The position numbers and the translations under genes are program-made. Source: Actinobacteria bacterium Ga0077541 (GTDB lineage: Bacteria > Actinomycetota > Thermoleophilia > Miltoncostaeales > Miltoncostaeaceae). From it: a stretch of DNA of 32,961 nt. Of this stretch, positions 23,452-32,961 are shown piece by piece. The stretch is from the NCBI GenBank assembly GCA_001464995.1, contig LNEQ01000215.1:1-32961 (forward strand), written 5' to 3'. A model generated the notes under the pieces. The model had not been told where the DNA came from and did not search any database. It worked only from the letters and a program-made list of their open reading frames with translations. The stretch's first letter is position 1. Each line of letters opens with the position of its first letter.

Positions 23452-24561
23452 TCAGTAGGGCGAGTCGGGCTGGCGGTCGTTGTTGCCGCCGCCGCCCACC
23501 AGGGCCGGCTCGGGGACGGGCTCGGCCGCCGGCGGGGCCGCCTCGGCGGCGCCGCCCCAGGTCTGCACGCCCAGCTTGTGGAAGCCGCGCACGTTGTTGA
23601 GCCGGGCGTCCCGGCCGCGCTCCATCGGCAGCACCCGGCCGTCGAGCAGCGGCGTCAGGTAGGGCGCAAGGACCGCGCCCCCTCCGCCGGTGATGACGAT
23701 CGCGTCCATGTCCCACTCGTCGGCCCACAGGCGGTTCGCGTCGGCCGCGATGTCGGAGGCCAGCTGGTTCATGACGTGCTCGATCAGCTTGCTGAGGTCG
23801 AAGCTCTCGCCGCGGATCTTGATGCGCCCCTCCTGCATGGCGTCGTAGAGGCGGTAGAGCTCGACGCCGACGCCGCTCTTCTCGCGGATCTTGCCCGCGA
23901 TCGTCGCGAACGCCCGGCCGACGCCGGTCTCGGTGCTCTGGCTGGCGCGCTCGAGGAAGGTGCCGCGGTCGGAGACCGTCAGATCGGAGGTCTGGAAGCC
24001 GACGTCCACGACGCCGATCTTCTGCTGGAGCGTGGCCTGGTCGCCGACGCCACCGGCACCGTCGAGCACCATGTCGTAGACCGAGCCGAAGGGCTGGGGG
24101 ATGACGGTGACCTCGGCGAAGTCGAGCACCTGGCGCTCGCGCCGTCCGTCGGGGCCGATCGTGGTGAGCACGTGGCGGCCGCGCAGGATCCGCGCCAGCT
24201 CGTCGGCCTTGTCGCGGTAGGTCGAGATCGGCAGGCCGGTGACGACGCCGATCGGCCGGCCGGGCTCGGCGAGGTCGGAGGCGACCGCCAGGGCGAGCAC
24301 CTTGGCCGACTCGGCGATGAAGCGGTCCTGGTCGAGGGTGAACGACCGCAGGCTGCTCTGGCGCTCGGCCAGGTCGCCGGCGAAGACGGCGTGGTCGTCG
24401 AGCTCGATGTGGAGGTGGTCGCTACCGGGCCGGGCGACGGACATCGGGGCGCCGAGGCGGTCCTCGACGGCCTCGCCGATGACCGACTTGACGATCAGCG
24501 ACCGCTGGCCGTCGGTCGCCTTGGTGAATCCGAATCCGAGATCGATACCGAGGATCTGCAT
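23452..24561 (-). CDS. ParM-like bacterial actin
   Basis: 369 residues. Actin-ATPase fold landmarks: phosphate-1 loop ILGIDLGFGFTKATDG, phosphate-2 loop IGVVDVGFQTSDLTV, adenosine motif IVITGGGGAVLAPYL, and a connecting GVVTGLPISTYRDKADEL that matches ParM/StbA/Alp-type proteins more than MreB or FtsA. Near the end RLNNVRGFHKLGVQTWG is typical of the ParM group (ANxxGFxxxG), then a Pro/Ala tail. Members form filaments that move plasmids or organise cell components. No ParR-like partner or parC-like iteron is beside it. An AGGAG ribosome site is 9-10 nt before ATG 24561. Confidence 0.82.
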   Translation of the reverse strand: MQILGIDLGFGFTKATDGQRSLIVKSVIGEAVEDRLGAPMSVARPGSDHLHIELDDHAVFAGDLAERQSSLRSFTLDQDRFIAESAKVLALAVASDLAEPGRPIGVVTGLPISTYRDKADELARILRGRHVLTTIGPDGRRERQVLDFAEVTVIPQPFGSVYDMVLDGAGGVGDQATLQQKIGVVDVGFQTSDLTVSDRGTFLERASQSTETGVGRAFATIAGKIREKSGVGVELYRLYDAMQEGRIKIRGESFDLSKLIEHVMNQLASDIAADANRLWADEWDMDAIVITGGGGAVLAPYLTPLLDGRVLPMERGRDARLNNVRGFHKLGVQTWGGAAEAAPPAAEPVPEPALVGGGGNNDRQPDSPY

Positions 24562-24731: not shown

Positions 24732-25523
24732 TCAAACGCGCACCTGGTCGATCAGGATGTCCTGTACGTGGTCGCGCAGATCGAGGAACAGCGGGTCGCG
24801 CGTGATCGCCGGCCCGCGGTCGGCGGGCAGGGGCACCGGCACCTCGGCGGCGACCCGCCCCGGATGCGAGGTGAGCACGTACACCCGCCCGGCCAGGTAG
24901 ACGGCCTCCTCGACGTCGTGGGTCACCATCAGGATCGTGGTGCCGATGTCGCGCCAGACGCCGAGCAGGAAGTCGCGCATCACCCGCTTGGTCTGGGCGT
25001 CGAGGGCGCCGAAGGGCTCGTCGAGCAGCAGGATGTCCGGCCGCGGCGCCAGGGCCCGGGCGATCGCCACCCTCTGGCGCATCCCGCCCGAGAGCTCGCG
25101 CGGGATGCGGTCGGCCCAGGCCGCCAGCCCCATGATCGCGATCAGCTCGTCCACGCGCTCGCGGCGCTCGGCACGCGGAACGCGGGCGGTCTCGAGGCCG
25201 AAGGCGATGTTCTCGGCGACGGTCTTCCAGGGGAAGAGGCTGTATCCCTGGAACACCATGCCGCGGTCCGCGCCCGGCCCCACGACGGCCTCCCCGTCGA
25301 TCTCCACCCGGCCCGCGTCGGCGGGCTCGAGTCCGCCGACCACGTTGAGCAGCGTCGACTTGCCGCACCCCGAGGCGCCCACGATGCACACCAGCTCGCC
25401 GGCGCTGACGCGCAGGTCGATGCCGTCGATCGCCGTGACGGCGGGCCGGCGGCGCGAGCCGGGGAAGGTCTTGACGAGCCCCTCGATCTCCAGCTTCTCG
25501 GGGCGGACGATGGTGAGGCTCAT
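24732..25523 (-). CDS. ABC transporter ATPase, nitrate/sulfonate/taurine type
   Basis: 263 residues with canonical motifs: Walker A GASGCGKSTLLN, Q-loop MVFQGYSLFPWKTV (the FQ..LFPW form of SsuB/TauB/NrtD), signature LSGGMRQRVAIARAL, Walker B DILLLDEPFGALD and switch His in MVTHDVEEAV. It energises the adjacent permease on the cytoplasmic face. ATG 25523 shares ATGA with the permease stop. It is the last gene of the operon starting at the substrate-binding lipoprotein. The substrate cannot be fixed from the ATPase, but context with urea/guanidine carboxylase genes suggests uptake of a nitrogenous compound. Confidence 0.92.
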   Translation of the reverse strand: MSLTIVRPEKLEIEGLVKTFPGSRRRPAVTAIDGIDLRVSAGELVCIVGASGCGKSTLLNVVGGLEPADAGRVEIDGEAVVGPGADRGMVFQGYSLFPWKTVAENIAFGLETARVPRAERRERVDELIAIMGLAAWADRIPRELSGGMRQRVAIARALAPRPDILLLDEPFGALDAQTKRVMRDFLLGVWRDIGTTILMVTHDVEEAVYLAGRVYVLTSHPGRVAAEVPVPLPADRGPAITRDPLFLDLRDHVQDILIDQVRV

Positions 25524-26425
25524 GCGCGGGCCCACGGGGCGGCGCGGCGGCGCAGGGCGCGCAGCGCGAGGTCGCTGACGACGCCGATGATCCCGAAGAT
25601 GATCAGGATCGCGAACATCTCGTCGATCTGGCGGAAGCGCTGGGCCCGGACGATCCGGAAGGCCAGGCCCTCCTCGGCGGCCAGCAGCTCGGCGACGACC
25701 AGGATCGACCATGCCGCCGCCAGGTTGATCCGGGCGACGTCGATGATGCCGGGCAGGGAGTGGGGGAGCACCACCCGGCGCAGCACGGTGAGCCTGCCGG
25801 CACCCAGCGTGTAGGAGGCGTTGATGATCTCGCGCGGCACCGCGCGCGCCACGTCGGCCACCATCAGGAGGTTGAAGAAGACCGAGCCGAGGACGATCAG
25901 CGTGATCTTCGGCGTCTCGTCGATCCCCAGCCAGAAGAGCATGAGCGGCACCAGCGCCGTGGCGGGGATGTAGCGCATGAAGCCGGTCGGCGGCTCGAGG
26001 AACGCCTCGACCGACCGGAAGGTGCCCATGCCCAGGCCGAGGACGATCGCGATCGCCATGCTGATCGTGTACCCGATCAGGATGCGGCGGCTCGACGCCC
26101 AGAAGTCGCCCAGCAGCACCCCGTCGTCGTGGAGGCGCATCGCGCCCTGCCACGTCTCTGCCGGGCTCGGGACGATCAGGTCGCCCGACGATCCGCTCGA
26201 GATCAGCAGCCAGAGCAGGATCGGCGTGGCCAGGCCCGCGGCCATGAGCCCGATCCGCCACGCCGCCGGGATGTCGTCGCGCACGCGCAGCAACGCGTGC
26301 TGGCGGCGGCCCCGCGTGCCGCGGCGCTGGGCGCCGAGCGTGCGGCGCCACTGGATGACGGTGCGCCGCTCCCCGGGGGGAGCGGCGCCCGTCGTCGTGC
26401 CCGTGTCGTCCTTCAGGGGCGGCAT
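25520..26425 (-). CDS. ABC transporter permease, nitrate/sulfonate/taurine type
   Basis: 301 residues with about six membrane helices. The ILIGYTISMAIAIVLGLGMG start of the transmembrane domain, PATALVPLMLFWLGIDETPK (the ALxPLxxxWFGxGxxxK region) and the EAA-like loop ASYTLGAGRLTVLRRVVLP are diagnostic of SsuC/TauC/NrtB permeases. The N-terminal 60 residues are hydrophilic and basic. It begins at ATG 26425, 17 bp after the lipoprotein stop, and overlaps the ATPase by 4 bp. It should form a homodimeric channel served by the ATPase and the lipoprotein. Confidence 0.92.
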   Translation of the reverse strand: MPPLKDDTGTTTGAAPPGERRTVIQWRRTLGAQRRGTRGRRQHALLRVRDDIPAAWRIGLMAAGLATPILLWLLISSGSSGDLIVPSPAETWQGAMRLHDDGVLLGDFWASSRRILIGYTISMAIAIVLGLGMGTFRSVEAFLEPPTGFMRYIPATALVPLMLFWLGIDETPKITLIVLGSVFFNLLMVADVARAVPREIINASYTLGAGRLTVLRRVVLPHSLPGIIDVARINLAAAWSILVVAELLAAEEGLAFRIVRAQRFRQIDEMFAILIIFGIIGVVSDLALRALRRRAAPWARA

Positions 26426-26441: not shown

Positions 26442-27473
26442 TCACTCGCCTCCGCTCGCGTCGGCCGCGGCCCTCGTGAACGAGTCGGAGAAGAGCCCGG
26501 TGAGATCGGCCTCCTCGCGCGTCAGCCCCGACGAGACGAGGAACGGGTTGATCTTGCGCGCCGTGTTCGGCAGCGAGGTGGGCTCGGACGAGTCGGCGAA
26601 GGCCTCGAGCGCCGCCGCGGCGTCGAGGATCTGCGTGCCCTCGGCGTAGGTCGCGTACTCGGCCGGGGTCACGCCGGCCTTCTCGGCCATGATCGCCGTC
26701 GTCTCCTCGGGGTTCGCCTCGATGTAGGCGAGCGTCTCGTACCAGGCGTCCACGATCTTCTGGACGTCGTCGGGGCGCTCGGCGACGAGGTCGCTCGAGA
26801 GGACGATGTGGTCGGAGATGCTTCCGGGGAAGTCGGCGGAGCTGAACAGCACCTTCGATCCCGGCCGCTTGAGCGCCTCGGTGGTGAACGGCGCGAAGAC
26901 GCCCACGCCGTCGAACTGGCCGCCCGCGAAGCCGGCCGCCGCGGCGTCGGTGAGCACGCCGCGGAACTCGATGTCGTCCTCGCCGAGCCCGACCGACTCC
27001 AGGCCCTGCAGGAGGAGGAAGTGGTCCACCACTCCGGCCTCGGCCGCCACGGTCCTGCCCTTCAGGTCCTCGATCGTGTCGATCGACCCGTCGACGATGA
27101 TCGCGTCGTTGCCCGCCGAGAAGTCGGTGTTGACCACGATTGCGGCCTTCTGGCCGGCGGCGACCCCGGCCATCGTGTCGTTGAGGGTCTGCGTGTTGCC
27201 GTCGATCTGCCCCGCCGTGAACGCGTCGATCGAGGCGATGTAGTCGGTGAAGAAGCGGAGCTCGACGTCGACGCCCGCCTCCTCGAAGAAGCCCTTCTCC
27301 TCGGCGACCGCGAGCGGGAACCAGCCCGGCCAGGCGCTGTAGCCGAGGGTGATCGTGGGTCCGGCGGCCGTGGTGCCGGCGGCGGCCTCGTCGTCGTCGC
27401 CTCCGCACGCGGACGCCCCGAGGGCCAGGGCGGCCACGAGGCCGGCGAGCAGTGGGATGCGCAGGAATCTCAT
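26442..27473 (-). CDS. Substrate-binding lipoprotein of the same ABC transporter
   Basis: 343 residues. A signal peptide MRFLRIPLLAGLVAALALG ends in lipobox ASAC, so Cys at residue 23 is the lipidated residue. NMT1/SsuA-like features follow: TITLGYSAWPGWFPLAVAEE, GFFEEAGVDVELRFF, a YIASIDAFTAGQID segment, and the DLKGRTVAAEAGVVDH loop. This family binds nitrate, taurine, pyrimidine precursors and similar small molecules. Acidic DDDE residues follow the Cys. GAGG lies 7 nt before the ATG. A candidate operator and -10 are at 27531-27553. Placement next to DUF1989/carboxylase genes argues for guanidine, urea or a related compound as ligand; this is inference. Confidence 0.9.
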   Translation of the reverse strand: MRFLRIPLLAGLVAALALGASACGGDDDEAAAGTTAAGPTITLGYSAWPGWFPLAVAEEKGFFEEAGVDVELRFFTDYIASIDAFTAGQIDGNTQTLNDTMAGVAAGQKAAIVVNTDFSAGNDAIIVDGSIDTIEDLKGRTVAAEAGVVDHFLLLQGLESVGLGEDDIEFRGVLTDAAAAGFAGGQFDGVGVFAPFTTEALKRPGSKVLFSSADFPGSISDHIVLSSDLVAERPDDVQKIVDAWYETLAYIEANPEETTAIMAEKAGVTPAEYATYAEGTQILDAAAALEAFADSSEPTSLPNTARKINPFLVSSGLTREEADLTGLFSDSFTRAAADASGGE

Positions 27474-27530: not shown

Positions 27531-27553
27531 GCTTTCGATAACGTATTGACAGC
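27531..27553. promoter_or_regulatory. Candidate TetR operator A, upstream of the ABC operon
   Basis: A 23-bp imperfect palindrome (8 of 11 positions symmetrical) with core TTTCGAT (27533-27539), N6, TTGA (27546-27549). It is the most AT-rich part of this spacer. The minus-strand hexamer TACGTT (27545-27540) inside it could be the -10 of the transporter operon, about 67 nt upstream of the ATG, so a bound repressor would block it. The same core with the same spacing occurs at 28411-28433. Confidence 0.55.
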
Positions 27554-27633
27554 TCCGGGCGGGCGAGTCGGCCCCAGGGTGGAAGAACGGCGCCCGCGCT
27601 TGGCCCCCGTGGCGGGGTCCGGAGCGGAGCCGC

Positions 27634-28350
27634 TCAGGCGGGGTCGCGCTCGCGGGCTTCGGTGCGCAGCGCGGCCAGCCGCGCACGCTCGCGCAGGAGC
27701 CCGCCGACCGCGAGGTCGGCGGAGAAGGTCGCGACCTGCTCGGGTTCGTAGCCGTCGTCCTCGAGCTGGCCGAGCGCGCCGACGGGGCGATGCCAGTTCT
27801 GGGTGGCCTCGTCGTTCGCCAGCAGCGTGAGCGCCGCGAGGCGGGGGTCGACATCCACCAGCTCGCCGGCCGCGATACCCTCGCGCACCAGCTCCTCCAC
27901 GGCCCGGTTCAGCGCGCGGCGCTCCTGCCAGAAGCGGGCGAAGCGCTCCTCCTGGAGCGCGGACAGGCGCGAGATCTCGTTGATGTCGTACGGGAAGGCG
28001 CAGAGCTGCAGCACGTCGAGCCGGATGAGCCGGTAGAGGCGCAGCGCGGGCGGGCCGCCCTCGGCGTTGACGCGCGCGAGCTGGTCGAGGACCACCCGGT
28101 TCACGCTGCCGAGGATCTCCTCGAGGATCGCCTCCTTGTCGCGGAAGTAGTAGTAGACCGACGACTGGCGCAGTCCCGAGCGCCGGGCGATCTCGCTCAT
28201 GGTCGTGCCCGCGACCCCGCGCTCGGCGAACAGGCGGCTGGCGACCGCCACGATCTCCTCGCGCGGCTCGCGCTCGAGCGGGCGGTCGTCGGCGCGCGGG
28301 CGTCCGGTGCGCGGCCGGGGGGGCTCCTCGTGGGTCGCGCCGGCCTCCAT
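27634..28350 (-). CDS. TetR-family transcriptional regulator
   Basis: 238 residues. The DNA-binding domain is clear: REEIVAVASRLFAERGVAGT, then TMSEIARRSGLRQSSVYYYF and RDKEAILEEIL, the TetR HTH with the YYYF signature. The C-terminal part is an all-helical ligand domain that is not conserved in sequence. ATG 28350 is chosen over GTG 28359 because TAGAGT lies 7 nt upstream of it. The N-terminus (MEAGATHEEPPRPRTGRPRA) is the usual disordered basic arm. The gene lies between the transporter operon and the DUF1989/carboxylase operon and is flanked by two matching palindromes, so it probably controls both in response to a nitrogen compound. Confidence 0.88.
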   Translation of the reverse strand: MEAGATHEEPPRPRTGRPRADDRPLEREPREEIVAVASRLFAERGVAGTTMSEIARRSGLRQSSVYYYFRDKEAILEEILGSVNRVVLDQLARVNAEGGPPALRLYRLIRLDVLQLCAFPYDINEISRLSALQEERFARFWQERRALNRAVEELVREGIAAGELVDVDPRLAALTLLANDEATQNWHRPVGALGQLEDDGYEPEQVATFSADLAVGGLLRERARLAALRTEARERDPA

Positions 28351-28357
28351 GGCGGCC

Positions 28358-28363
28358 ACTCTA
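28358..28363 (-). promoter_or_regulatory. Leaderless-type -10 of tetR
   Basis: Minus-strand TAGAGT, 7-nt spacer GGCCGCC, then ATG 28350. It decides the start codon. No ribosome site is present. Confidence 0.5.
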
Positions 28364-28373
28364 CGCCGGGGGC

Positions 28374-28402
28374 TTGACGGCCGCGCTCGCGTCGCGCAGG
28401 CT
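28374..28402 (+). promoter_or_regulatory. Weak candidate promoter of the DUF1989/carboxylase operon
   Basis: TTGACG (28374-28379), 17-bp spacer, CAGGCT (28397-28402). The -35 is good, the -10 weak. A start near 28410 would place operator B exactly at the transcription start. Confidence 0.35.
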
Positions 28403-28410
28403 AGAGGAGC

Positions 28411-28433
28411 AGTTTCGATGCGTCCTTGAAACT
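28411..28433. promoter_or_regulatory. Candidate TetR operator B, upstream of the DUF1989/carboxylase operon
   Basis: AGTTTC (28411-28416) and GAAACT (28428-28433) are perfect inverted arms. The core reads TTTCGAT (28413-28419), N6, TTGA (28426-28429), identical in bases and spacing to operator A, and the total length and symmetry (23 bp, 8 of 11) agree. It lies 15 bp before the ribosome site of the first gene. A leader hairpin is an alternative reading. Confidence 0.55.
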
Positions 28434-28457: not shown

Positions 28458-29240
28458 TTGTCCCTCACCTCGAGTACCCATGGGGCCCGGGACCACGCCC
28501 GGGCGCAGGCCGGCCGCCGCGTCACGAGCCAGCCCACCGTCCCGGCGTCCGCGGCCGCCGACCCGCCGGCCGGGATCGCCCCGGAGCGGCTGATCTGGGA
28601 GGAGACGCTCGGCGACGGCGCCTACTGCGCCCACCGGCTCCCCCGGGGGGCCCGGCTGCGCCTCTCCGATGTGGCCGGCGACGCCTGCGCCACCCTGATG
28701 CTGCACAGCGCGCACGGGCCGGCGGAGCGCCTCAACGTCGCCGACACCGTGAAGGTGCAGTGGACGGCCTACCTGGGCCCCGGATCCCTGCTCCTGTCCG
28801 GCATGGGGCGGGTGCTGATGACGCTCGAGGAGGACACGAGCGCCCGTCACGACGCGCTCTGCGGGCCGCATCCGGCATCGCGCGCCCGCCTGCTGCTGGC
28901 CATGGCCAAGCACGGCCTCGGGCGTCGCGACCTGCCGCCCGCCCTGACGCTGTTCACCGGGGTCCGGGTCGCGTCCGACGGCGGCCTGGTCTTCGAGGGC
29001 GGGGCCGCCCCCGGCCGGCACGTCACGCTGCGCGCCGAGCAGGACGTGCTGGTGTCGCTGGTCAACGCGCCGCACCGGCTGGACGTGCGCGAGGGCCACT
29101 CCTGCAGCCCGCTCAGGGTGACCGCGTGGGAGGGTCCGCCCACCGCCCCCGACGACCCGCTGCGGTCGGCGACGCCCGAGCGCCTACGGGCGTTCGAGAA
29201 CACCGAGGACCACCTCCGCGGTCTGGGCGTGCGCCCGTGA
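28458..29240 (+). CDS. DUF1989 protein, urea-carboxylase-associated UAAP1 type (carboxyguanidine deiminase subunit)
   Basis: About 260 residues from TTG 28458. The UAAP1 pattern is visible: GDGAYCAHRLPRGARLRLSD, ACATLMLHSAHGPAERLNVA, DTVKVQWTAYLGPGSLLLSG, MGRVLMTLEEDTSARHDALCG and VLVSLVNAPHRLD. DUF1989 pairs encoded next to such carboxylases were annotated as urea-associated proteins, and characterised pairs act together as carboxyguanidine deiminase, turning carboxyguanidine into allophanate with release of ammonia. The gene stop shares GTGA with the UAAP2 gene. The first 40 residues are not conserved-looking and the true start could be a little downstream. Pathway assignment depends on its partner, which is broken here. 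Confidence 0.82.
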   Translation: MSLTSSTHGARDHARAQAGRRVTSQPTVPASAAADPPAGIAPERLIWEETLGDGAYCAHRLPRGARLRLSDVAGDACATLMLHSAHGPAERLNVADTVKVQWTAYLGPGSLLLSGMGRVLMTLEEDTSARHDALCGPHPASRARLLLAMAKHGLGRRDLPPALTLFTGVRVASDGGLVFEGGAAPGRHVTLRAEQDVLVSLVNAPHRLDVREGHSCSPLRVTAWEGPPTAPDDPLRSATPERLRAFENTEDHLRGLGVRP

Positions 29241-29859
29241 GCGCCGCGCCGCCCGGCCGGATCGTGCGCGACGAGGTGGTGCCGGCGCGGGTTCCCTGGT
29301 CGGGCGTCGTGCGGGCCGGCCAGACCCTCCGGATCATCGACCTCGGCGGCAACCAGGCCGTCGATTGCATCCTCTACCGCGCCGACGACCCGTCCGAGCG
29401 CTACAGCGCGCCCGACACGATCGCCGAGCAGGGCAACATCTTCCTCACCACCGGCTCGCGCCTGCTGTCGGACGAGGGCGCGGTGATGATGGTCATCACC
29501 GACGACACCTGCGGCCGCCACGACACCATCGGCGGCGCCTGCAGCCAGGAGTCGAACACCCTCCGCTACGGCCACCACACCAAGCAAACTTCCTCGTCGC
29601 GCACTCCCCGCGCGAGATGGGCCGGCGCGACATGGTCAGCAACATCAACTGGTTCATGAACGTGCCGGTGGAGGAGGACGGGACGCTCGGGATCGTGGAC
29701 GGCATCTCCGCGCCGGGCCTGTACGTGGACCTGCGCGCCGAGATGGACACGCTCGTCGTGATCTCGAACTGCCCGCAGGTCAACAACCCCTGCAACGGGT
29801 TCGACCCCACGCCGGTCCGGCTGGTGGTCACCGATCCCGAGCCGGTCGCTGGTGCCTGA
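29237..29859 (+). pseudogene. Frameshifted DUF1989 protein, UAAP2 type
   Basis: From GTG 29237 the frame encodes the UAAP2 hallmarks LRIIDLGGNQAVDCILYRAD, ERYSAPDTIAEQGNIFLTTG and DDTCGRHDTIGGACSQESN up to RYGHHTK (AAG at 29582-29584). That frame then turns to unrelated sequence and stops at 29659. The rest of the domain continues one frame over from AAC 29587: NFLVAHSPREMGRRDMVSNI, NWFMNVP, GISAPGLYVDLRAEMDTLVV and [20 protein letters not shown], ending at 29859. Family members have about seven more residues between these points, including a conserved Cys-containing His-rich segment (of the HSCRD or HQHAC kind); the missing length and phase fit a deletion of about 19 bp. Flanking sequence is otherwise intact, so the break looks recent, or is an assembly error. 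Confidence 0.8.
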
Positions 29860-32800
29860 GTCCCCGGCCGTGCGCCGGGTGCTGGTGGCCAACCGGGGCG
29901 AGATCGCCTGCCGCATCATCCGCACGCTGCGGCGGATGGGGATCGACGCGGTGGCGGTCCACTCCGACGCCGACGCGGGCGCCCCGCACGTGCGCATGGC
30001 CGACGCGGCCCACCGCCTCGGCCCGGCGCCCGCGGCCGAGAGCTACCTGCGCGCCGACCTGCTGATCGCCGCCGCGCGCGCCCATGGGGCCGACGCGGTG
30101 CACCCCGGGTACGGCTTCCTCAGCGAGGACGCCGGCTTCGCCGACGCCGTCGAGGCCGCCGGGATGGTGTTCTGCGGGCCGACCCCCGGCCAGATCCGCG
30201 CCTTCGGGCGCAAGGACTCCGCGCGCGACCTGGCCCGCGCGGCGGGCGTGCCCCTCCTGCCGGGATCCGGGGTGCTGGAGGACGACGATGAGGCCCTGCG
30301 CGAGGCGGCGCGGATCGGCTACCCGGTGATGGTGAAGAGCACCACGGGCGGCGGGGGCATCGGAATGTCGGTGTGCACCGCCCCGGACCAGCTCGTGGAC
30401 GCCCTCGCCCGGGTCGCCCGGGTGAGCGAGGCCAGCTTCGGCGGCGGCGGCGCCTTCCTGGAGCGCCACGTCGCGCGGGCGCGGCACGTGGAGGTGCAGA
30501 TCCTCGGCGACGGCCGGGGCCGGGTGGTCGCGCTGGGCGACCGCGACTGCTCGCTTCAGCGCCGCCACCAGAAGGTGCTCGAGGAGGCGCCGGCGCCCGG
30601 CCTCGGCGACGGCCTGCGGGCGCGCCTCCACGCCGACGCGGTGCGGCTGGGGGAGCTCGTGGCCTACCGGTCGGCCGGGACGGTCGAGTTCCTCCTCGAC
30701 GACGACACCGGCGAAGCGTTCTTCCTGGAGGTGAACACCCGTCTCCAGGTGGAGCACGGCGTCACCGAGGAGGTGCTCGGCATCGACCTGGTCGAGCAGA
30801 TGATCCTCATCGCCGCCGGCGAGCCCGGCCTCACCGCCGCGCCGCCGCCGCCCACGCGCGGCCACGCGGTGGAGGCGCGCGTGTACGCCGAGGATCCGGC
30901 CCGCGGCCACCGGCCCTCGTCGGGCCTGCTGTCGCGCGTGGTGTTCCCGGAGGGCGTGCGCGTGGACGGCTGGGTGGAGGACGGCACCGAGGTGACGCCG
31001 CACTACGACCCGCTGCTGGCGAAGCTGGTGGTGCACGGCGACGACCGCGCCGGCGCCCTCGCGCGGATGTCCGAGGCGCTCGCGGGGACTGAGATCCACG
31101 GGCTGGAGACCAACCTCGGCCTGCTGCGCGCGGCGGTGGCCTCGGGGCCGTTCGCCGAGGGGCGGCCCACCACGGCGGCGCTCGCCGGCCTGGCGCCCGA
31201 CACGTCGACGGTGGAGGTGCTCGCCCCCGGGCTCGTGACGACGTTGCAGGACCACCCGGGCCGGCTCGGCCTGTGGGCCGTCGGCGTGCCGCCCTCCGGG
31301 CCGATGGACGACCGCAGCCATCGTCTCGCCAACCGCCTGGTCGGGAACCCCGAGGGCGCCGTCGCGCTGGAGATGACGCGGATCGGGCCGACGCTGCGGT
31401 TCGACCGGGACGCGCGCGTCTGCCTGGGCGGCGCGCGCATGGCGGCCGACCTCGACGGCGCGCCGGTGCCCTGGTGGACCCCGTTCGCGGTGTCCCGCGG
31501 CCGGACCCTGCGCCTCGGCGCGGTGGAGGGGCCCGGCGCCCGGGCCTATCTGGCCGTCGCCGGGGGCTTCGCCGTGCCGCCGTACCTGGGCAGCGCGTCC
31601 ACCTTCACCCTCGGCGGCTTCGGCGGCCACGGTGGCAGGGCGCTGCGCACCGGCGACATCCTGCGCCTGGGGCCCGAGTCCGGTGCGTCCGACGCCGCGT
31701 CCGGGCCGGGGCCGGAGGCGATCCCCCGTCTCACCACGGAGTGGGAGGTCGAGGTCCACTACGGACCGCACGCCGCGCCCGACTTCTTCACCGAGGAGTA
31801 CGTCGAGGAGTTCCTCGGCGCGTCGTGGAGCGTCCATCACAACTCGGACCGCACCGGCGTGCGGCTGCTGGGCCCGCGGCCGGGGTGGGTCCGCGCCGAC
31901 GGCGGCGACGCCGGGTTGCACCCCTCCAACATCCACGACTGCGCCTACGCGGTGGGCGCGGTCGACTTCACCGGCGACATGCCGGTGGTGCTCGGCCCGG
32001 ACGGGCCGAGCCTCGGGGGCTTCGTCTGCCCGGTGACCGTCGCGACCCGCGACCTCTGGAAGCTGGGCCAGCTGTCTCCGGGCGACGCCGTCCGCTTCCG
32101 GCTCGCCCCGGGCGCCCGCACGCGCCCCGGGCCCGGCGGGGTGTCGGCGGCGGTGCTGGGGCGGCGCCCGCGGGCGGCGGGCCGTCCCGAGGTGGTGGTG
32201 CGACGCAGCGGCGACGCCAACCTGCTGGTCGAGCTCGGCCCCCCCGTGCTCGACATCGGGGTGCGCCTGCGCGTCCACGCGCTCATGACCGCCCTCGAGC
32301 GCCGCGGGGTGCCGGGGGTGATCGACCTGACGCCCGGCATCCGCTCCCTGCAGGTGCACGTCGATCCGGCGCGGCTGCCGCTCGAGAGGGCCCTCGCGAT
32401 CGTGCTGGAGGAGGAGGAGGGTCTCGCGGCCGGGGGCGACATCACGGTGCCCAGCCGCGTTGTCAACCTGCCGCTGTCCTGGGAGGACGACGCGGCCCTG
32501 CTGGCGGTCGAGCGCTACATGAGCTCGGTGCGCCCGGACGCCCCCTGGTGTCCCAGCAACACCGAGTTCATCCGGCGCGTCAACGGCCTCGCCAGCGTCG
32601 ATGACGTCCGCGAGATCGTCTTCGGCGCGAGCTATCTGGTGCTGGGCCTCGGCGACGTCTACCTCGGCGCGCCCGTGGCCACCCCCGTGGATCCACGCCA
32701 CCGCCTGGTCACCACCAAGTACAACCCGGCCCGCACCTGGACGCCGGAGAACGCCGTCGGCATCGGCGGCGCCTACATGTGCGTCTACGGGATGGAGGGG

Positions 32801-32961
32801 CCGGGCGGCTACCAGCTGGTCGGGCGCACGGTGCCCGTGTGGAACACGCACCGCTCGACGCCCGAGTTCCCGCCCGGCTCGCCCTGGCTGCTGCGCTTCT
32901 TCGACCGGATCCGCTTCTTCCCGGTGTCCTCGCGCGAGCTGGACGGCTGGCGCGCGGGAGT
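29852..32961 (+). CDS. Urea/guanidine carboxylase, biotin-dependent, 3' end cut by window edge
   Basis: An open frame of 1036 codons from GTG 29852 (8-bp overlap with the UAAP2 gene) to the edge. Domains in order: biotin carboxylase ([53 protein letters not shown] near residue 292), then a KipA-like carboxyltransferase half ([20 protein letters not shown] near 452; [17 protein letters not shown]), then a KipI-like half ([91 protein letters not shown]). This is the urea-carboxylase architecture, in which urea or guanidine is carboxylated with ATP and bicarbonate. The biotinyl domain and any allophanate hydrolase are beyond the edge. Adjacent DUF1989 genes favour guanidine as substrate, by family knowledge. 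Confidence 0.93.

Follow-up and report, generated by a model that had tools for sequence, protein, structure and literature searches.

According to a 2025 review, riboswitches are the only known guanidine receptors besides transporters and enzymes, and guanidine-binding transcription factors are left for future work (PMC12186494). In the regulons of the guanidine-I and guanidine-II riboswitches (RF00442, RF01068), guanidine import is coupled with either the Gca-CgdAB-AtzF route or the guanidinase route, which is also the kind of coupling proposed here. Unlike those regulons, in which the sensor is an RNA acting in cis, the locus described below would be controlled by a protein acting in trans.

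The closest described protein regulator is AmtR of Mycobacterium smegmatis and Streptomyces (PDB 5e57), a TetR-type repressor of a "urea carboxylase" operon (PMC4222082), which by present knowledge is probably a guanidine carboxylase operon. In M. smegmatis, AmtR was experimentally shown to repress the cgd operon and was released neither by urea nor by amino acids (PMC4222082); its deafness to urea may be explained by a target enzyme that probably acts on guanidine. AmtR of Corynebacterium glutamicum also belongs to the TetR family and has creatine/creatinine-type genes among its targets, as relatives of the regulator studied here appear to have. However, it is a global nitrogen regulator with a CTAT-N6-ATAG site, and it is reported to lack a known small effector and to be released by GlnK (PMC8864220). 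TetR/AmtR-type control of a cgd operon is already known, and what is added here is a candidate protein sensor of guanidine. In our literature search, no guanidine-responsive TetR was found named, and no paper was found linking AmtR with guanidine.

The window, i.e., the whole stretch of DNA analysed (32,961 nt from Actinobacteria bacterium Ga0077541), carries a TetR-family regulator gene, tetR (27634..28359, minus strand), which starts at an ATG at 28350 or a GTG at 28359. On the same strand lies a three-gene operon for an ABC importer, which consists of an NMT1-type substrate-binding protein (26442..27473; Pfam NMT1), a permease (25520..26425; Pfam BPD_transp_1), and an ATPase (24732..25523; Pfam ABC_tran, with an NCBIfam match). 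On the plus strand, cgdA (28458..29240; Pfam DUF1989, TIGR03425 above cut-off), a UAAP1-type gene for carboxyguanidine deiminase subunit A, is followed by cgdB for subunit B (29237..29859; Pfam DUF1989) and gca for a biotin-dependent guanidine carboxylase (29852..32961; TIGR02712), the end of which is lost at the contig end. The likely start of cgdA is the TTG at 28458, with an AGGAG ribosome-binding site just before it. Relative to the sister genome G021, where the frame is intact, cgdB lacks 19 nt at 29586/29587 and is thereby shifted out of frame (alignment with L008); the loss is either genuine or an artefact of assembly. On the basis of the sequence comparisons given below, we think it likely that TetR is a repressor whose operators are two matching palindromes, one in front of each operon, and that its release by guanidine would raise uptake and breakdown together.

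The sequence-only reading had placed two 23-bp palindromes with the shared pattern TTTCGAT-N6-TTGA on either side of tetR. The pattern is indeed found on the plus strand at 27533-27549 and 28413-28429, and both sites are real, but alignment over relatives showed a unit of 19 bp, the palindrome TTTCGATA-N3-TATCGAAA, of which the earlier pattern covers one half and part of the other. Candidate operator 1, TTTCGATAACGTATTGACA (27533..27551, unstranded), is located 5' of the minus-strand importer operon, 59 nt from the ATG of the binding-protein gene (27473). Candidate operator 2, TTTCGATGCGTCCTTGAAA (28413..28431, unstranded), is located between the divergent tetR and cgdA, and would probably serve autoregulation of tetR as well. 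Its end is separated by 26 nt from the likely start of cgdA, and match coordinates give a distance of roughly 26-35 nt in orthologues of the host order. The description of both sites as AT-rich islands of comparable symmetry was correct, since each 23-mer has 56.5% A+T (26% for the window) and 8 of 11 symmetric pairs. By contrast, the proposed overlap with a likely promoter could not be confirmed, because a scan of the region with the sigma-70 consensus recognised no promoter at either site.

Symmetry of at least 8 of 11 pairs is reached by 204 of the 32,939 23-mers in the window; it is ordinary and by itself no proof, and a chance likeness of two functionless AT-rich spacers has to be weighed for this reason. 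The significance of the sites rests instead on their shared sequence and on its conservation. TTTCGAT-N6-TTGA with at most one mismatch occurs twice in the window, while 0.01 matches are expected from dinucleotide shuffles. In the whole 3.16 Mb genome, sites 1 and 2 are the only matches to the relaxed form of this pattern and, with as many as three mismatches allowed, the sole matches to the 19-bp form.

The sequence-only reading would fail if the motif were not kept upstream of orthologous operons, and a search of related genomes, mostly MAGs, found that it is kept. Four genomes of the host order and the loci L011-L013 carry the site beside TetR, 5' of the orthologue of the cgdA operon, of the binding-protein operon, or of both. 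TetR and cgdA occur in the identical 5 of 42 genomes of the host order, and the strict palindrome was found in five genomes of the order, in four of them at the TetR locus. The fifth match, in the TetR-less genome G008, lies where a short contig ends and was rejected as chance. Across the phylum, the perfect motif is present in 4 of 396 genomes, two of which encode, no more than 2.5 kb from the motif, a TetR relative of 44-45% identity; the share of searched genomes with a window-clade TetR varies between groups, from about 1% to about 12%. Operator 1 is the same at 19/19 bases and operator 2 at 18/19 bases in G021, and operator 2 is found at the matching place in G009, G011, G006, and L011. 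In G009 and G011, there are three sites: one precedes cgdA/tetR, one the binding-protein gene, and the third a type III glutamine-synthetase gene. The latter gene appears to belong to the regulon as its third member. The type III glutamine-synthetase-like ORFs of these two genomes (L075:13583, L076:10676) have a long N-terminal part without a Pfam match.

Scoring with position matrices gave a similar picture. With a matrix trained without the genus, site 1 scored 30.1 (the top of the window) and site 2 scored 21.7, with 9.3 for the third position. With leave-one-clade-out matrices, the top score fell on a proposed site in 11 of 12 loci; in the five Thermoleophilia loci, all of the top ranks were proposed sites, followed by a wide gap. 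A held-out set was obtained by searching the order of one Acidimicrobiales genome with a TetR protein profile, which yielded nine new genomes and loci, and these were scored with the matrix made earlier. In five of them (L130, L133, L134, L135, and L136), the highest two scores of the whole locus fall 5' of cgdA and 5' of the binding-protein gene; tetR is inverted in L135, yet both sites are in place. The operons are also present in L131 and L138, with weaker sites, while L132 and L137 have creatininase and glutamine-synthetase-III genes instead of guanidine operons. The rarity of the sites and their repeated conservation leave chance likeness with a negligible probability, and the held-out loci already contradict it. 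Taken together, comparative genomics supports the candidate shared-operator reading, with two sites conserved along with TetR.

The enzymes of the plus-strand operon point to guanidine rather than urea as the substrate. Asp705 and Asp935 of Gca align with Asn1330 and Asp1584 of Kluyveromyces lactis urea amidolyase (5i8i), respectively, and Asp at both positions is described in PMC11410670 as the signature of guanidine carboxylases. Both aspartates are thus present in Gca, and the window also carries the DUF1989 pair CgdA/CgdB; allophanate hydrolase is found in the relatives L075 and L076, while the contig of the window ends before it. Judged by these signatures, the operon is that of the guanidine carboxylase pathway. 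The importer probably transports guanidine, and its binding protein matches SsuA_fam first among NCBIfam models, followed, below cut-off, by TIGR03427 for a urea-carboxylase-associated binding protein.

Additional evidence came from two loci with a different enzyme route, L012 (Acidimicrobiales) and L013 (an Actinomycetota MAG). Both carry a window-type TetR (~50% identity) and importer (~60% identity) adjoined by an arginase-family gene and urease genes, together with a palindrome-type site, although there are just weak site candidates 5' of the arginase-family gene itself. No cgdA orthologue was found in the two genomes, only weak DUF1989 matches. The arginase-family protein of L012 matches the guanidinase of Nitrospira inopinata (9FEK) with an E value of 7e-204, and the three motifs bearing the guanidinase signature residues (Thr, His, and Trp) were found in L013 as well as in the alignment of L012. 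These guanidinase genes (L012:4699-5850, L013:4648-5763) are located beside urease genes and the window-type TetR and are not under a riboswitch. Since the carboxylase and guanidinase routes have only their start, guanidine, in common, the compound shared by all of these loci is guanidine, which sharpens the earlier "nitrogen uptake and carboxylation". NCBIfam names such as urea carboxylase, urea ABC transporter, and urea-amidolyase-associated proteins would suggest urea as the regulated substrate. Such a reading is very improbable, because Asp replaces Asn at the specificity position of the carboxylase, the CgdAB pair belongs to the operon, and urea is a product and not a substrate of guanidinase, the enzyme present in L012 and L013.

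An RNA sensor was also looked for. The Rfam scan of the window and 28 related loci returned RNase P and tRNA only, with no guanidine-I, -II, or -III RNA, and guanidine-I (RF00442) had no match in the whole genome.

The protein encoded by tetR is a member of the TetR family according to its TetR_N and TetR_C_24 domains (PF00440, E 2e-16; PF17932, E 2.8e-12). Its predicted model is all-helical (mean pLDDT 72.9, from a shallow alignment) and loosely matches the TetR folds of 3dcf and of AmtR (5e57). In the sampled tree, the window TetR clade is sister to AmtR, with support of 100/99 for the AmtR type, 89/91 for the window clade, and 95/92 for both together. That the window TetR is itself an AmtR was rejected, as it falls outside the AmtR clade and has a different operator, i.e., TTTCGATA-N3-TATCGAAA compared with ATTTCTGTC-N4-GACAGAAAT for AmtR of M. 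smegmatis and Streptomyces. The latter AmtR has a small regulon and is autoregulated, as is proposed for the window TetR, but here the second site would control an NMT1-type ABC importer instead of an amino-acid permease, and the residues of the effector domain differ. Specifically, all 12 window-clade members compared have D125, E128, and W144, while Asn, Gly/Ala, and His/Arg, respectively, stand at these positions in AmtR-type proteins, suggesting a different effector site. Acidic and aromatic side chains at these positions would fit a guanidinium ion.

The distribution of the two operators also distinguishes the two regulators. The cgd operon of Streptomyces-like and mycobacteria-like genomes has a gene for a TetR protein nearby, and for the one tested, the best relative of solved structure was AmtR. 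Of 12 cgd loci from other Actinomycetota, six carry the AmtR palindrome (0-1 mismatch) and two more match it weakly, and the window-type palindrome is absent from the cgd operons of AmtR type. Conversely, no AmtR operator (CTGTC-N4-GACAG type) was detected in the 16 window-clade loci, even with up to five mismatches allowed. Genomes G434 and G726 have both kinds of TetR, and their window-type TetRs lie beside creatininase, arginase-family, or glutamine-synthetase-III genes, together with a window-type palindrome. The operator type therefore follows the regulator type and not the enzyme operon as such. Moreover, the recognition helix has Gln-Pro-Ser in place of Gln-Ser-Ser in L012, L013, and L130, where the sites read TTTCTA in place of TTTCGA, as expected if TetR reads the site. 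It is hardly credible that tetR is merely a neighbour and that the operators belong to another, unlinked regulator: the motif co-occurs with the TetR clade, the same enzyme operon lacks it next to AmtR-type regulators, and TetR relatives keep it beside other neighbours such as creatininase and type III glutamine-synthetase genes.

We infer that a TetR dimer binds TTTCGATA-N3-TATCGAAA at both sites, presumably as a repressor and not as an activator. When bound at site 2, it would silence cgdAB-gca, the divergent operon for degradation, and probably tetR as well; when bound at site 1, it would silence the three-gene importer. Guanidine or a closely derived product (e.g., carboxyguanidine) may bind to the C-terminal domain and release the repressor, upon which import and breakdown to ammonia would go up together.

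The same operators and repressor could instead answer to GlnK (a PII protein) or to general nitrogen status. Given the reports on AmtR (PMC8864220, PMC4222082), such a signal is conceivable for the sister clade to which the window TetR belongs, as AmtR of C. glutamicum is reported to be released by GlnK and to have no known small effector (PMC8864220). We consider a signal of this kind unlikely, though it deserves more weight than the other alternatives. The clade tracks guanidine genes across two enzyme routes, the differences from the AmtR type at D125, E128, and W144 suggest another effector site, and the creatininase and arginase-family genes next to some relatives hint at guanidino ligands. 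Release by guanidine is thus the preferred reading, and the genes near the window-type TetR relatives suggest a wider set of regulators for guanidino compounds. Whether this holds more broadly is evenly balanced in our judgement: the TetR clade may be a dedicated guanidine sensor within a wider guanidino-sensing clade, which would replace riboswitches in Thermoleophilia and Acidimicrobiia and would govern two unrelated routes through one operator type, and the sister AmtR, too, may respond to guanidine and not to urea.

In this way, a specific TetR protein with a predicted operator and predicted targets is tied to guanidine by comparison of genomes; the joint switching of import and breakdown proposed for it is otherwise known chiefly from RNA switches. 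If the proposal is true, the repressor and its operator could be put to use as a biosensor for guanidine. AmtR may be guanidine-responsive too.

Several minor observations were made as well. In the guanidine operons of L101-L104, L107, and L112, which come from other Actinomycetota, no guanidine riboswitch was found with Rfam, and the AmtR palindrome is located 5' of cgdA or near an AmtR-type gene. The window-type palindrome was also seen at TetR relatives near creatininase, arginase-family, or type III glutamine-synthetase genes (L068:7063, L069:7006, L070:12744, and L071:7329). Finally, the importer operon of the window is adjoined by a gene for an actin-like protein (23452-24561; ALP_N / MreB-like_C), which is of the archaeal actin homologue type.
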